DNA of 64,000 nucleotides from Echinarachnius parma (taxonomy: Eukaryota; Echinodermata; Echinoidea; Clypeasteroida; Echinarachniidae): the NCBI GenBank assembly GCA_037951105.1, contig JBAMJV010001304.1, positions 1 to 64,000 of the forward strand. The letters are read 5' to 3'. The notes under the pieces are model-generated. The model made no database searches. It was not told where the DNA came from and was given only the letters and a program-made list of their open reading frames with translations. Shown piece after piece: positions 13,504-61,880 of this stretch. The first letter of the stretch is position 1, and each line of letters starts with the position of its first letter. The position numbers and the translations under genes were made by a program.

Positions 13504-14440
13504 AAATTTGAAATGAAATTAAATGAAAATAATTTATTTACCAATTGAAAAACATTTACAATATAATACAAAGATTCCACAAAATTAAATCTTCTTGGTA
13601 AAAAGGGAACTAGTTATAGCACAAAATGCTAGTTGGTCTAGCCCTTAAAAAATATGCATTAAATAAGTATTGAAATTATAAGCACAATAGAAAACGCAGT
13701 TGTCATATAGACATAATGTACGTGCTCATGCAAAATACAGAATCAAGAATGCCGAACATATATACAAATGGAAAATAATCATTTCGAATCTAACAAATAA
13801 CCTTTCAACAATTTACGAAACGTATGTCTTGACATTTTACTTTTTCAATTATTTGGAAGTTCATTCCATATTTTTGGTCCGATATATGAAATTGATTGTT
13901 TTGCTAATTCTAATTTTACTGGATCTATTTTGAATTTATCGTCATTTCTACTTCTAGTATCATAACAATGATCAATGCGAGTACAGTAAGTAACTAAGCT
14001 TTGTGAGAATTTATCGTTTATCAAATCAAACAGCACTGTTCCTATGACATATATGTATAAATCAAAAATATTAAGAACAGATAATTCCATAAATAATGGC
14101 GCTGTGTGCTCCCTTGGACTCTTGAAACATATTGCACGCATGGCTCTCTTTTGAAGCAAACATATTTTCATTAAATACGACGGATAAGTTCCACCCCAGA
14201 CTTCTAGGCCATATGAAATGTGTGGTTCAACAAATGTAAAGTACAACAATTTTAAAATTCTTTTAGGCACAACATTTCGTATTCTATATAATACACCTAT
14301 GTTCTTTATCAAGGAGACACAAACAGAATCCACTTGTTTCTTCCATGTTACATTTTCATCAATATTGACTCCAACAAATGAAGTATAAGGAACTTTTTCA
14401 ATTGTTTCATTGTTCATTACAATATTACCAAGAACATCAA
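13504..14440 (-). mobile_element. 5'-truncated LINE (CR1/Rex-like), minus strand
   Basis: On the minus strand an open RT C-terminal frame (14417-13845) is followed by a short 3' UTR and a TTTCATTTAATTTCATTT-type tail ending near 13504. The insertion splits an older repeat whose halves flank it. Confidence 0.75.
13845..14417 (-). pseudogene. LINE reverse transcriptase C-terminal region
   Basis: This 190-residue open frame starts after the RT catalytic block. It contains 'SFVGVNIDENVTWKKQV' (the family's 'YLGV.ID..LTW..HI' motif), 'RILKLLYFTFVEPHISYG' (the 'LY..FI.PHL.YG..VWG' thumb motif), 'EVWGGTYPSYLMKI', 'LLQKRAMRAICF' and 'ISYIGPKIWNELP' near the end. The frame stops at the window-low end with no in-frame continuation. 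No endonuclease or catalytic palm is present, so it is a dead 5'-truncated copy, though the open frame is better preserved than in the LINE at 1917-3935. Confidence 0.8.
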
Positions 14441-15039
14441 TTTAGAAATATGCCGTAAGTCTTGACCTGAAATAGTATAGCGCTACTGATTGGTCATAAT
14501 TTTTCTGGTTGAACGAATCTGACCAATCACGACATACGAAACGGCACCGAACGGCGCTGTCATGTATAGCAGACATGCATTGTACGCTGAGCATACTATT
14601 AACACGCACAGTACATTACATTGCCGTCTGAGTGCAGGCATGCAGTACTATACAATAGTTATGAACATTCGTCGATTTCCCAGCCCTGTATGGGTCAGTA
14701 GCATAGCTAGCGAGGGGTGGGGTGGTGGCTCGTAAGATATCATATATAGAACCCATTAATCTGACAAAAATCAAAAGATAATGGGGAAATCATTATAGAA
14801 TAAAACAACACATGTAGGTTAACAATAAAATATTGAAATGAATTCCTGGGATAGATGTCACTATTATTTGTTATATTTTATTTGTAAATTTAATGAGGGC
14901 ACATGCCAACTATAAGCTACGCCACTGCCAGCCCCCCCCCCCCCCCCCCCCTCAACAAATTGTGATAATTTATTTAATAACTAGTTTTTGTAAAAAAAAA
15001 ATTGTTCACATCACAGCTATTAACACATTTCAGTTGCAA

Positions 15040-27331: not shown

Positions 27332-28038
27332 CCCTAATATGGCCGGGGGGGGGGCATAATGGCCCACCCCTCCGCGATTTGGTTTATTGGTCCAAAACGC
27401 TGTACGATGACGCGCCACGGCTTGGTGGCTTTATTCTATCGGGTCTTGCGCACATTTTAAAACAAAAATTTCGAAAATCGGACCTACCGTTACAAAGTCA
27501 CGTGACCTTTTGTCTATGCATGTCAGCCCGAAAATCGCTCAATTTCGTGATTTGTGTACAAAACATATGGAAATATCAATTTTCGTAAAATGAGGTGTAT
27601 AATTAGCTATTTGATGTTGTTTACATGTTATATGTTGGTTTGGGAATAAAATAAAATAAAATAAACAACAAAAACAATAAAATACATAAGAAATTAACAA
27701 AACAATAGAAAACATAAGGAAGAACCAGGCTCTTCCAAACAATTTTGTCGTATTATCATTACAAATGCTCTAATGAATATATGTAGTAAAAATCAGAGTT
27801 TAATTATGAAGAATATATGATTTATGGGTAAAAATATGAATGTCATGACTTATTTGCATAAATTACCATAAATATGCAAATTAAGGAATTTTTCAAAATT
27901 TTTCAAAATTACCATTGTATTCTATACACTTCACTTATCATGCGTGCACAATTTTAGGGGGGGGGGGGGGGCATAATGCCCCCCCCCCCCCCCCCCCCCG
28001 GCCTGCTGAAGACCTCAAATAGCCCGGCCCTTTTAGGG
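27332..28038. mobile_element. piggyBac-like MITE (TTAA target, CCCTAA ends)
   Basis: The ends are 'ccctaatatggccggg' and 'cccggcccttttaggg', inverted repeats, each flanked by TTAA (27328-27331 and 28039-28042). Both ends carry poly-G or poly-C runs next to 'gcataatg'. TTAA duplication with CCC-starting ends is the piggyBac pattern. No transposase is present. A right-end fragment is at 45150-45251. Confidence 0.75.
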
Positions 28039-28042
28039 TTAA

Positions 28043-29460
28043 ACTGTAACCTCCTCCTTTTCCCTCCGTTTCCATTACCCCTCCCCTCTCCCTCCCATCT
28101 CCTTTACTCCTCTTCCCTCCATTCCCTTCACTTTGCTCTTCTCCCAATCGTTTCCATTCTTCCCTCCCCTTCCCTCCCCCTCTATAAACACTTTCCACTC
28201 CCAGCCTCTCCTTGCCTTTCCTTCAACTTACCCTCCCTCCCCATTCATTCTCTCCTTTCCCAATCCCTCCTCTTCCCTTATATTTACTTCAATGAATTAT
28301 CTTATGAATACTTTGTTTGATATGAATTATATGTAATATATCATTTAGTTTGGTTAAATTCCTCCCTCCTTCTTCCTTTCATCCCTTCCTTCCTTCCTTG
28401 CTTGCTTCCTTCCTACCATTCTTCCTTCCTTTTTTTCTTTCTTTCGTCCCTTCGTTCCTTCCTCCCTTCATTCCCTTCGTGCCTTCCATTCATTTTGATT
28501 CCCATCCCCTTTGATTCCCATCCCCTTCTACTTCCCTCCCCTCCCGCATCTTTCCTCTTATTCCTTTCCTTTCCCACCTCTTAAATTTAATGTTTTCCCC
28601 ATCACATTCCACCCCTTCTCGTCTCTAACTTCACTTCCAACTATATTTATGCCGGTCACTTCCATTTTATATTTCCCCTCCTCTTCCCCCTTTTCTTCTT
28701 CCCTCCCTTCTTCCATCCTCTTCTTTCCTTCCTTCCATCCGTCCTCCCTTCCTTTCTTCGCCCATCATTCCGTCCTTGATCCATCCCTTCTTTCCTTCCA
28801 TCCGTCCTCCCTTCCTTTCTTCGCCCATCATTCCGTCCTTGATCCATCCCTTCTTTCCTTCCATCCGTCCTCCCTTCCTTTCTTCGCCCATCATTCCGTC
28901 CTTGATCCATCCCTTCTTTCCTTCCATCCGTCCTCCCTTCCTTTCTTCGCCCATCATTCCGTCCTTGATCCATCCCTTCTTTCCTTCCATCCGTCCTCCC
29001 TTCCTTTCTTCGCCCATCATTCCGTCCTTGATCTATCCCTTCTTTCCTTCCATCCGACCTCCCTTCCTTTCTTCGCCCATCATTCCGTCCTTGATCCATC
29101 CCTTCTTTCCTTCCATCCGTCCTCCCTTCTTTTCTTCGCCCATCATTCCGTCCTTGATCCATCCCTTCTTTCCTTCATCCGTCCTCCCTTCCTTTCTTCG
29201 CCCATCATTCCGTCCTTGATCCATCCCTTCTTTTCTTCCATCCGTCCTCCCTTCCTTTCTTCGCCCATCATTCCGTCCTTGATCCATCCCTTTTTTCCTT
29301 CCATCCGTCCTCCCTTCCTTTCTTCGCCCATCATTCCGTCCTTGATCCATCCCTTCTTTCCTTCCATCCGTCCTCCCTTCCTTTCTTCGCCCATCATTCC
29401 GTCCTTGATCCATCCCTTCTTTCCTTCCATCCGTCCTCCCTTCCTTTCTCACTTCCTTCC
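28043..29460. repeat. 1.4 kb polypyrimidine strand-asymmetric tract
   Basis: The plus strand is almost pure C+T from about 28050 to 28300 and from about 28355 to 29460, with blocks such as 'ccttccttcc'. Open frames on both strands result from the composition and have no domain. Long mirror-like pyrimidine tracts can form triplex (H-) DNA. That is a general property and not shown here. Confidence 0.85.
28718..29450 (+). repeat. 63 bp minisatellite, about 11.6 copies
   Basis: The unit runs 'ccatcccttctttccttcc', 'atccgtcctcccttcct', 'ttcttcgcccatcattccg', 'tccttgat'. Unit ends (gat) fall at 28780, 28843, 28906, 28969, 29032, 29095, 29158, 29220, 29283, 29346 and 29409. The spacing is 63 bp except one of 62, caused by a single-base deletion near 29176. 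Because 63 is divisible by three, long spurious ORFs run through it on both strands (including 349 codons at 28511-29560). Units are over 95% alike, implying recent expansion or homogenisation. Confidence 0.95.
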
Positions 29461-29599
29461 TTCTTTTTATTGCGCTGGATATCAAATCAATAATTATGTT
29501 TTCGGTTCATTCGTGTATCCGGCCCTGTTTTTTTCTTTTGCTTTATTTGTGATGTTATAGAGTGATGAAGTGTGACGTCATCTATGACGTCATAAACAC

Positions 29600-30260
29600 C
29601 TATTTTTAGAATTTTTACATTTGAACTTCATTTTCAGAAAGAGCATGAAATATGATGTCTAAATACTGAAAATCAATTGAATATGTTAAGTATTGGCTGA
29701 TATAATAATAATAATAATAGTATTTGCGATTTATATAGCGCATAATATGATTGATAATCATCTCTAAGCGCTTTACAGTATTATTACCCCGGTCATCGGA
29801 CACACATTCACAATCATTCCGCACATGACGTGCACTCTCTGCTCCCTTGGGAGCAATGCATTTTGGCAGCCATATGGCGCACTTGACGGTATACAAGTCA
29901 TACACGTCCCACTACCAGGTCCCCATTTACACACCTGGGTAGAGAGCAGCAATGTGGATTAATTGTCTTGCTGAAGGACAAACGGAGTGGGCAGGGTTCG
30001 AACTCGGGATCTCGAGATCAGAAAGCGCCCGCTCTACCGATCTTGCCACACCACGATATATGCCCATCCGAATGATTGTTTTTCCAATAGGCAATCAGTG
30101 TTGTTGTGGACTGGTTCATAACTTTTCGCCCATTGCACTATAACACTGATGCCCATTGAAGTAAAATTTATTAACATATTCAATTGTACTTAGACATTAT
30201 TTTTCATGCTATTTATGAAAATGAAGTTCAAATTTGAACATTCTAAAAAAAGTTCGCTAT
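29600..30260. mobile_element. Palindromic MITE split by a SINE
   Basis: The arms at 29600-29690 ('tttttagaatttttacattt', 'gaacttcattttca', 'gcatgaaa', 'caattgaatatgttaa') are mirrored at 30165-30255. The loop is occupied by a complete minus-strand SINE (29700-30055), so the SINE landed in the MITE. Confidence 0.75.
29700..30055 (-). mobile_element. tRNA-derived SINE, family 1, full length
   Basis: On the minus strand the head is 'gtggtgtggcaagatcggta' (A box) with 'gagttcgaaccc' (B box) at about 29993-30004. The body includes 'acccaggtgtgtaaatgggg' and 'gcccaagggagcagag'-like blocks, and the tail is 'taaagcgcttagagatgatt' then 'gcgctatataaatcgc' and (ATT)n at 29703-29717. This is the reference copy for family 1 in the window. 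Confidence 0.9.
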
Positions 30261-30685: not shown

Positions 30686-30889
30686 CATGGCTTGTGAACT
30701 TTAAAGCGGTACAGCCAACTACGTAGGATTTATTTCATTCGATTCTCATGCATTTTTGAAGAGACGTTCCCTTTACTAACATACAAATCGTTTCTTTCTA
30801 TTTTGTCTCCCCATGCATTCAGGTCTATCATGCATAATGTAATCTGTCTACTAATTCCGACACTTGTGCTAGACAACCGACCTCGCTTC

Positions 30890-31650
30890 AAGAACGCAGA
30901 AGTAGGAGCTTCATCCATACTGAGATCACTATCTGGACCAGCTTCAGCCCTTAAAGAGCCTAGTGGGCTATGTTCATGGCACTGAATAGGCGGATATCAG
31001 ACACTCAGATGGAATAGGATAGCATAATCGACTGAGTAAATTTGGGTGATCGAAATCAAGAATCCACTCAACTGACAGGAGCTTCTTCCATACTCCGATC
31101 GCTGTTTGGGACAGCGCCCATTAACATTACCAACACCACAATATCTGCTCGGTTATGTTCAGTTTCTATATCGTTTACAGAATCCTCATTATGTGAGTAG
31201 TTATCAACATCAATAACCCACCGTAGTGGTAGGAACGTCATCCATACTGCGCTCACTGTCTGGAACAACAAACCATGCAGAGAGTAGTTGGGTCATCAAC
31301 GTTAAGAACCCTCTAAAATGACATAAGCTTCATCCATTCTGAGGTCACTGTCTAGAACAGCCTGACCGAGAGAAGTTAGTGAGTTGGGGTAAGCAACATC
31401 AAGAAACCATTCTCCAGTCATGGGCCTCATCCGTACCGTAGTGCATGTCTGGAACAGCCTACCAGAGATGAGTTGATATGATAGGCATCAGGAACGCACT
31501 CACCAGTCAGAGGTCCGTTCTACAGTGACTGTCTGGAACAGCTAACTAGAGAATAGATGGGTTGATCAACGTCAATAACCCACTCGGCTGTCAGGGTCTT
31601 CATCCGTACTCATGAACTGTCTGGAATTACTTATCAAATAGTAGTTGGGA
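30890..31650. repeat. Degenerate ~90 bp tandem array with a conserved core
   Basis: A core of the form 'ttcatccatactgNgNtcac' then 'tgtctggaacagc' recurs at about 30910, 31084, 31240, 31330, 31427, 31511 and 31601, with a lone variant near 32070. The last five are 84-97 bp apart and the first two gaps are longer. On the minus strand the core reads 'VPDSERSMDD' or 'VLDSDLRMDEA', but frames are broken between units, so either the array descends from a coding repeat or the frame is accidental. Confidence 0.65.
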
Positions 31651-31671
31651 TGATCGACGTCAAGAAACTAC

Positions 31672-31830
31672 CGTATTTGTCGGTGTATTAACCGCACCTT
31701 TTTTCTCAAAAAAAAGCTCCAAAAAGGGGGGAGCGGTTAATACACGGAGATAGGAAAATTGTACACGCAAATTGCCTAGCCAGCGCCGGGCCCTAATTAA
31801 TACGATGCGGTTAATACACGGAGATAAGAT
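31672..31830. mobile_element. Putative MITE (GTGCGGTTAATACACxG motif)
   Basis: The block 'gtgtattaaccgcacc' is mirrored by 'gagcggttaatacacggag' at about 31725, and a third copy 'gcggttaatacacggagata' lies at 31805. This resembles dispersed animal MITEs that read 'gtattaaccgcacc'. The exact ends are uncertain. Confidence 0.55.
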
Positions 31831-32700
31831 TCACAAGTGACCAAAGTCCACCTCAGCAAGGCATTCATACTCATACGATGCACGGAAAATACAAGCATAT
31901 TCCCCCCAAAACAAGTCAAGTGTCTTTTATGTTTCTCTTTTACCTCTTCCTAAATATTGCTCGTTGTTGCTGCGAAAGCAGCTTTGAAGATTCACGATCA
32001 TTGCTTCGATCTTAGTACGAATCCTAACATGCACCCGGCCGCGCGACTGGCATATAACTGGCAAGAACCTCATTCATACTGCGATCACTGATCACTGATG
32101 AATGACTGGCATGATGATGTCACAGAAGTCATTTGCTTTTGGAGGTTTTTTTTAGGGGTAGAGCTTAGCAGGTAGAACAAAAGTAATAGAAAAAATAATA
32201 TAAAATATATGACACAAATGTACATCAAAAAGTGAAAAGATATGTGATGTATACATTATTATAGATCAACAAAAGTCAACATGAATTTGTAATGTTGTCA
32301 CCCTTTAAGTGGTAGGAGATGAAACTTTAATTCGACCAGAGTTGGGTTAATCGATGATTTAGGTTCAATCCCTCACGATATGCAGGCATCGACACCTCTC
32401 CAGTTATCGCCATTATGATGCACTCCGAAATCTCTCTGATGTGCTGTGAACTACTAACTTGCTCATATGCATGTTTTTGTGCTTCCGTATATTCAATTTG
32501 ATCTCTATCTTCATCTCATAGTTTGTATATGCGTATGGCCAGGATCAGTTGTGGGGTAGTTTATTCATGCACAGCTGATTCAGAAACGCATTTCATTTCA
32601 ATCTTGTTGCCACACCCTGGCCACTGACGACGAGTGTGAGCACCCTTTGCTATTTTGTTTACAGGACTGTATACTCCTTCTGCAGGATTGAGGACTATCC

Positions 32701-32870
32701 CAACAGTCTTTTATAGGACTACCAACAGTCCTTTCTAGGACTATCAACAGTCCTTTCTAGGACTACCAACAGTTCTTTTTAGAACTCTCCTAGAAAGAAT
32801 ACCAACAGTTCTTTTCAGAACTACACCAACAGTCCTTTCTAGGACTACCATAGTCCTTTTCAGGGCTTAC
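32701..32870 (+). repeat. Seven tandem histone-3'-stem-loop-like hairpins
   Basis: Seven 16-nt hairpins, each with a 6 bp stem and a 4-nt pyrimidine-rich loop, lie at 32705-32720, 32727-32742, 32749-32764, 32771-32786, 32807-32822, 32831-32846 and 32852-32867. Typical forms are accaacAGTCCTttctAGGACTacc and accaacAGTTCTtttcAGAACTac. They share the layout of the animal histone pre-mRNA 3' end: an ACCAA(C) 5' flank, six-pair stem with G in the second pair, U-rich tetraloop ending in C or U, and an ACC 3' flank. Compensatory changes (TCC/GGA versus TTC/GAA) keep the stems paired. The canonical stem starts GG; here it is AG. No histone ORF lies in this window. Confidence 0.75.
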
Positions 32871-33406
32871 CAATCCACCCATCTCACATGGTGTACCCGT
32901 AAACCACACGTATTATATACACCACCATGGAAACCGATACTTACAAGCAACATTTAAGGATTGAGACTGTTCATCCATCGTCTTTAACATGATCAATGGT
33001 TGTATATATGTTTGCGTGTTTGTTTTGTTTTACTTTTGCATAATTTATTAATAAAACAAAGTCAGCATGACCAAACTTATGTATGTCAGAGATAGCATTC
33101 ATTATGCTGTAAAGGACACGCACGATACAGTTAAATCATACTAGGCGCGATATAAATCAAACCGAAACATAATTCCAATTTGATCTGCGAATTCGGTTGC
33201 GGGAACTCAAATTTCGAAACGTGTTGGTCAATGAAATTTCCCAAACGCAAATGATAAAAACGGAGTTATAACTACACCGTCATCTATAAAACACCGAAAC
33301 AGAATATAGGTTATCTAAAATAATACATCTTTCAATCCTGTCCACAAGGTATGAACCCAGAGCAAATTGGAATGATATATATAGGTTCAATTTATATTGC
33401 GATTAA

Positions 33407-34474: not shown

Positions 34475-34950
34475 AACCCTCGTAGGAACGGGTGCGGTTC
34501 GTTACTCCGAAGGTTCGTTATTCGTTGAGGGTTAGTTAATCAGAAAATGAAATAGGGTTCGTTAATCCGATCATTTGTTACATTAATCCGAAGGTTCGTT
34601 ATTCCGAGGGCTCGTTTATCCAAAAATAAAATTTGGTTTCGATATTCCGAAGGTTCGTTAATCAAAAACGAAATGGGGTTCAGTAATCCGAAAATGAAAT
34701 GAGATTTGTTAGTCCGAAAATGCAATATGGTTTGTTAATCCGAAATGTTCAATACGAACCCAATATAATTATCGGATTAACGAACCTCATTTCATTTTCC
34801 GATAAACGGACTTCATTTCATTTTCGGATTAACGAACCTCATTTCAATGTCCGATTAACGAGGCCCATTTTATTTTCGGATTAAGAACCTTCGGAATATC
34901 GAACCCGATTTAATTTTCTGAGAAACGATCCTTCGGAATAACGAGCTGTA
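34475..34950. repeat. Inverted arrays of a GTTCGTTAATCCGAAAATGAAAT unit
   Basis: Up to about 34745 the unit reads 'gttcgttaatccgaa', and from about 34770 the complement 'ttcggattaacgaac' dominates, so two tandem arrays meet head to head and the whole region can fold. Units are about 20-60 bp apart and diverged. The ORFs here are shadows. Confidence 0.75.
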
Positions 34951-61576: not shown

Positions 61577-61880
61577 CGAGCATGGTGGCTTAGTGGTTAG
61601 AGTGTCCGCCTCATGCACGGGAGGTCCTGGGTTCAAACCCAGACCGGGTCATACCAAATCCATTTTAAACAATTCTGCCTTCTAGCCAGGCGCTCGGCAT
61701 TTACATTATACTGTATAACGGACAATGGAAATGTAATCACACGAGTGACCAGAGGACTGGCCCCCTTCTATAGCTTTCACTACATTTAGTAGACATGTGG
61801 CCTAGGAATACTGTATCTTAGATAAGCGCCGCCTTATGTGCCGACATTGGCACGGGAAGGTCTTCAACTTTTGTTTTACT
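61577..61880 (+). mobile_element. tRNA-derived SINE, family 2 (copy c)
   Basis: The head 'gcatggtggcttagtggtta' and B-box region 'ctgggttcaaacccagacc' are followed by the same body as at 25547 and 48235. It is at the position orthologous to the SINE in segmental copy 1. Confidence 0.85.

Follow-up and report, generated by a model that had tools for sequence, protein, structure and literature searches.

Seven tandem hairpins at 32705–32867 of a 64,000-nucleotide stretch of Echinarachnius parma DNA (contig JBAMJV010001304.1; hereafter the window) very probably form part of the leader of a dispersed Penelope-like retrotransposon (PLE). On this assessment, which we hold with high confidence, the window contains a truncated insertion of the element, the sites at which copies end are internal to it, and the likeness of the hairpins to histone 3' ends most likely arose by chance. 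An apparent orphan histone signal now becomes a mobile-element leader, and the case serves as a caution that hairpin arrays in the pseudo-LTRs (pLTRs) of PLEs can resemble histone ends. The copies also provide a genomic record of PLE integration, with two recurrent ends ~41 nt apart and one of each in all 13 places where two arms occur together. This two-end pattern fits the two-site model obtained with the Anolis protein in vitro, as far as PMC11167929 describes it.

The insertion in the window and its dispersed copies

The window copy is a single arm of 264 nt (32693–32956, forward strand), flanked by a 9-bp target site duplication, with the same 9-mer AGGATTGAG on both sides (32684–32692 and 32957–32965). 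It is truncated at its 5' side, comprises the 3' part of a pLTR and the start of an open reading frame (ORF), and is 98–100% identical to dispersed copies. Downstream of the hairpins, ACGTATTA (32908–32915) is the 'short end', the first of two points at which dispersed copies recurrently stop and a putative internal reverse-transcription start site. A 41-nt 'tail' (32916–32956), which lies between the two end types, is present in the window copy, so that this copy ends at 32956 with the 'long end'. The PLE ORF opens within the tail: its first ten codons, ATG included, read METDTYKQHL (32927–32956), and the same letters begin the ORF in loci L033 and L070. The insertion is carried by a larger repeat (30803–33383) that is common to L002, L003, and L004 except for 31671–32051; the window and these three loci appear to be duplicates of one insertion.

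The sequence-only reading had suggested that the array could serve a transposon, and the array does lie in a PLE copy flanked by duplications. It had also suggested an element 3' end: the array lies ~90 nt from the end of truncated copies, and in fuller copies it is upstream of the PLE start codon. The genome search and the look upstream that it had proposed revealed a dispersed repeat with a hammerhead-like motif 5' of the array in fuller copies; the window copy is without this motif. At least 79 matches to the array were found when 40 of 1,482 candidates were scored, and 41 of them are full length (193–201 nt) at 98–100% identity. Forty stretches around copies were fetched, several of them from a place already represented. 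Two alternative ends recur among the copies: one at ACGTATTA, 11 nt before the ATG, and one ~41 nt further, between GCAACA and GCAACATTTA, which is 27–30 nt into the ORF.

Thirteen of the fetched places are head-to-head inverted pairs, and each has one short and one long end (13/13, although in L046 and L048 the short end deviates by a base or two). The tail therefore occurs on exactly one end in every two-arm place, together with a target site duplication: a string of at least 12 nt is shared across the insertion in all 13, although a few of its letters belong to the element ends. In a control, 62 cross-pairings of 12 two-arm copies share at most 9 nt (mean 5.8); L012 was left out of these pairings, and its duplication is ambiguous because it sits in an ATT repeat. 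The tandem units and the head-to-head arms would also be expected of a plain satellite, or of a DNA transposon whose long terminal inverted repeats consist of palindromic sub-repeats. However, the two ends differ by the 41-nt tail in 13/13 two-arm places, the tail reads into the PLE ORF, and L033 has one array on each side of that ORF, both in the same direction, which makes an origin of this kind extremely improbable.

The junctions between arms were also compared with a route in which cDNAs of the same sense, one on each target strand, anneal through their palindromes. This route was rejected: the long complementary junction overlaps that it predicts are absent. The arms overlap by only 1–10 nt in five of the 13 places (L009, 4 nt; L012, 1 nt; L013, 10 nt; L014, 1 nt; L041, 1 nt), and in the other eight the arms are 1 to 3,635 nt apart, separated by a gap or by additional sequence. 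Three observations on individual loci can be added. Five arms in L009, L014, L041, and L046 stop 487–492 nt from the core end. These inner ends fall within a few bases of where the hammerhead-like motif starts on its 5' side, as though the PLE template RNA had often begun there. The centre of the two-arm copy in L030 (998–1175) holds further back-to-back pieces of the PLE end, which suggests repeated template jumps. In L042 (2919–3914), a different retroelement, recognized by its RNase H ORF (PF00075, 1.8e-13), is nested inside a PLE copy.

The parent element and its leader

Identification of the element as Penelope-like is strong and comes from its match with published PLE structure. In L033, the order is pLTR–ORF–pLTR in direct orientation, and pieces of the ORF match the reverse transcriptase (RT) domain RVT_1 (4.6e-10 and 3.2e-7) and the GIY-YIG domain PF01541 (5.4e-5). 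L048 has a further GIY-YIG match (PF01541, 4.5e-5). GIY-YIG is C-terminal to RT in the element ORF, which begins with METDTYK inside the 'long' tail; the L033 ORF is damaged, being interrupted by a stop and apparently duplicated internally. The RT belongs to the element as represented by L033, not to the window copy itself. The complete order of hammerhead-like motif, hairpins, and ATGGAAACC is present in L070. When the genome was searched with the RT piece, at least 105 matches were obtained from 102 scored out of 1,906 candidates, ~79 of them at 90% identity or more and the lowest at 63%. To sample divergent PLE families for the array, stretches upstream of 16 of the 105 matches were fetched, and two hold AGT..ACT hairpins (ten in L070 and two in L071). 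The absence of an array from the others says little because few of them allowed the start of the ORF to be located.

Leaders were compared in 21 copies, chosen because each retains both the opening 14 bases of the hammerhead-like motif and the core that precedes the short end. Each has 10–14 perfect hairpins, of which the window retains the 3' seven. The distance from the motif to the short-end core is 355–481 nt, with 458–460 nt in 12 of the 21; most other lengths differ from this by ~22 or 104 nt, and one leader measures 472 nt. The motif consists of a helix I of 4–6 bp, CUGACGA, a C that is extra relative to the canonical core, a 6-bp helix II, GAAA, and GU(C/U) before helix I closes. A strict hammerhead pattern had no match, and only after this was the pattern loosened by one extra base. 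The loosened version gave 23 rows in loci L009–L048, some places being found twice, versus one match in 20 mononucleotide shuffles of 262 kb. Rfam hammerhead models had no match in L033 or L009 at E values up to 1.

Published accounts provide several points of comparison. PMC11167929 describes a purified PLE protein that cuts both strands at AT-rich DNA, with reverse transcription from two adjacent internal sites that correspond to the genomic 'tail' and with insertion that proceeds without a full pLTR. Adineta vaga Penelopes with head-to-head pLTRs, a 31-bp tail on one of them, duplications of 8–10 bp, and palindromes are described in PMC3846280, and PLE hammerheads are characterized in PMC6155905 as usually minimal and without helix III. 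To the extent covered by these sources, the E. parma element shares with the Penelope/Poseidon clade (PAc of Anolis, PMC11167929; A. vaga, PMC3846280) an ORF with RT and GIY-YIG, tandem copies, a pLTR, an optional 30–40-bp tail on one end, inverted copies arranged head to head, short duplications of the target, and a candidate hammerhead-like motif. It differs in that 10–14 tandem hairpins fill the ~370 nt from the hammerhead-like motif to the start codon. The PAc hammerhead, as PMC11167929 presents it, instead lies across the start codon, with its cleavage site 26 bp further on, while the pLTR palindromes given for A. vaga in PMC3846280 are single and of 18 or 38 bp. Metazoan retrozymes, in the description of PMC7229834, are likewise small non-autonomous repeats that coexist with PLEs and have hammerhead motifs; they are tandem ribozyme-bearing monomers, whereas the window copy has no ribozyme motif and E. 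parma copies are truncated or are head-to-head pLTR pairs. No precedent for a PLE leader built of tandem hairpins was found in the literature searched.

By analogy with the Anolis system, the PLE protein would nick DNA and begin reverse transcription close to the start codon, at either of two internal sites. For the window copy, synthesis may have begun at the ORF-internal site and continued for 264 nt, through the tail and seven hairpins, before it halted within the array, after which the new end would have been joined to the target. The array could have expanded as a 22-nt palindromic unit and a ~104-nt block were duplicated in tandem, probably through polymerase slippage. It may serve as a structured leader that lies between a putative ribozyme and the start codon and is dispensable for insertion. 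Such a slippage-grown structured leader is the least certain step of the mechanism. The array is unlikely to be an RT binding site because a full pLTR is dispensable for insertion in the system described in PMC11167929. The positions of the putative RT sites (−11 and +27 to +30) count against the explanation: they differ from the Anolis position, 111–118 nt into the ORF, with the inner site at +27 to +30 in the E. parma ORF versus +111 to +118 in PAc as reported in PMC11167929. The extra base of the hammerhead-like motif, the loosened pattern needed to find it, the lack of an Rfam hammerhead match, and the interrupted L033 ORF count against it as well.

Structure and variation of the hairpin array

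The seven hairpins are real, each with a stem of 6 bp and a loop of 4 nt. They start at 32705, 32727, 32749, 32771, 32807, 32831, and 32852. Successive starts are 22, 22, 22, 36, 24, and 21 nt apart, in agreement with the ~22-nt spacing that had been described for the first four. Allowing up to two mismatches, the hairpin pattern has seven matches in the whole window, all inside the array; in 100 shuffles of the window that preserve dinucleotides, the mean is 0.53 and the maximum is three. Between the fourth and fifth hairpins lies the spacer CTCCTAGAAAGAATACCAAC (32787–32806), which contains AGAAAGAAT (32792–32800) and also TCCTAGAAAG, an exact reverse complement of the hairpin-unit core CTTTCTAGGA. 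The whole insertion has a predicted fold of −65.1 kcal/mol (z −7.49), in which only two of the seven hairpins (32705 and 32807) would stand as single 6/4 hairpins. Hairpins 2 and 3 are predicted to fuse, as are hairpins 6 and 7, while hairpin 4 would pair with the spacer, TCCTAGAAAG folding back onto it.

Compensatory substitutions (TCC/GGA to TTC/GAA) had been taken as a sign of selection or of recent copying of functional hairpins. The change is real, although it amounts to a single compensated pair, C-G to U-A, in two of 14 distinct units. The set in which it was sought holds 15 units, namely the seven of the window and eight further upstream units of the L033 array; its compensated-pair count was reached in 176 of 500 shuffles and its compensated-cell count in 12 of 500. 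Stem compensation among units is weak evidence for selection. Nor is selection on stems apparent among copies, over 36 arms in which stem sites vary no less than other sites: eight changes occur over 84 stem sites, one over 28 loop sites, and five over 81 others. Four of the eight stem changes are at one site, 32709, where the T of the window is the minority letter.

A further fold-back structure occurs at 34541–34920 of the window, where two arrays of ~26-nt repeats (34651–34745 and 34754–34890) face each other as reverse complements; the L033 stretch has no match to this interval.

Comparison with histone 3' ends

Histone-type 3' stem-loops had been the name given to the hairpins in the sequence-only reading, and the Rfam model for the histone 3' UTR stem-loop (RF00032) does not support it. 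The array reaches at most 21.0 bits (32802–32847), with a second match of 17.4 bits (32744–32788), both below the gathering score of 34 bits; the Rfam scan of the window gave no RF00032 match at gathering level. MIR8742 also matched, at 18 bits (cut-off 130), and was disregarded. Over the 1.2-Gb genome, at least 72 RF00032 matches were obtained from 75 scored candidates among 253,612 at first look, and at least 71 of them are above the cut-off at 34.8–43.2 bits. The best array score is at least 13.8 bits below these. Among the matches, nine lie at 2357–50348 of contig C177, on one strand and ~4–9 kb apart, perhaps as a tandem histone gene cluster.

Twenty of the 72 genome matches were fetched for comparison (19 over the cut-off and one at 32.1 bits). 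Histone stems have the consensus GGYYYU/ARRRCC, and the second G-C pair is the sole base-specific contact of the stem-loop-binding protein (SLBP). Neither the stem, GGCTCT/AGAGCC, nor the third loop base, T, varies among the 20 fetched hairpins. The array shares with them the 6-bp stem, the 4-nt U-rich loop, and the second-pair G-C, which, as had been noted, occurs in all seven hairpins and is found in 14 of 14 distinct units. In contrast, its first pair is A-U in 7/7, compared with G-C in 20/20 histone hairpins, its third is U-A or U-G in 7/7, compared with C-G, and its third loop base is T in 3/7 and differs in 4/7; moreover, it is tandem and lies in a retroelement leader. The flanks that all seven were said to share are shared only in part: CCAAC precedes five of the seven, and ACC follows three. 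CCAAC also occurs as a 5' flank among the genome's own histone hairpins.

A profile built from 19 of the fetched hairpins gave the array hairpins scores of −3.7, 4.1, 4.2, 5.0, 9.8, 10.0, and 17.6; the 20 fetched histone hairpins score 23.9–32.4, although 19 of these 20 are themselves part of the profile. The array nevertheless supplies the top six scores among the 596 6/4 hairpins of the window on both strands. Its best, hairpin 32807 at 17.6, is a level at which 0.56 random hairpins would be expected genome-wide if bases were independent. This score, and the presence of AGAAAGAAT nearby, could be explained if an ancestral PLE had captured a histone 3' end by copying the hairpin and its downstream element, which then diverged and multiplied. 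However, the commonest unit scores only 4.2–9.8, and the best letter count is 13 of 19 (P ~1e-4 per random hairpin), a count matched by two hairpins that are not of the AGT..ACT type over 198 kb of other loci; the finding was also selected for its resemblance. Capture of a histone end is therefore very improbable. The likeness of the array to histone hairpins is partial and most likely due to chance in near-identical palindromic units.

It could also be proposed that PLE RNA carries histone-like hairpins that bind host SLBP, which would yield non-polyadenylated or S-phase-timed transcripts or an SLBP decoy. The histone downstream element is purine-rich and of U7 type, and AGAAAGA lies 3' of 19 of the 20 fetched histone hairpins, 11–14 nt past the stem as counted from the listing. 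AGAAAGAAT follows hairpin 4 of the array, and two or three spacers of this type occur in each fuller leader; these spacers, the second-pair G-C, the CCAAC flanks, and the six best histone-like scores in the window all favor SLBP binding. In tandem copies, the array lies ~130 nt past the stop of the previous ORF, and a 3'-end role is therefore not impossible by position. Against this, AGAAAGAAT is 5 nt past the stem rather than 11–14 and follows only one of seven hairpins, TCCTAGAAAG pairs back onto hairpin 4, the first and third pairs are non-histone in 7/7 and the third loop base in 4/7, and the best model score is 21.0 bits versus 34.8–43.2 for the 71 hairpins over the cut-off. Both putative RT start sites are 3' of the array, and the template RNA must therefore extend past it. 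SLBP use by the array, whether for transcript ends or as a decoy, is unlikely. There is a similarly small chance that the leader as a whole imitates histone mRNA ends. In that case its 10–14 hairpins, which retain the G read by SLBP, and the interspersed AGAAAGAAT, which resembles the genome's own histone downstream elements, would recruit SLBP to PLE RNA and thereby either couple its expression or export to S phase or titrate the protein. No report linking a histone stem-loop to a retrotransposon and SLBP, or to a transposable element, was found in the literature searched. If the array does bind SLBP, it would represent a mobile element that uses the histone mRNA pathway.

Other features of the window are of separate interest. 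Open frames at 670–1146 and 13845–14441 resemble, by eye, C-terminal pieces of putative non-LTR reverse transcriptases. A tRNA-Met is predicted at 61580–61650 (ARAGORN; Rfam tRNA, 32.3 bits) and could be either a gene or a tRNA-derived repeat. GC skew is −0.59 over 28001–30000, and a 63-nt minisatellite at 28725–29449, of 11.5 copies with 98% matches, lies within this pyrimidine-rich stretch.
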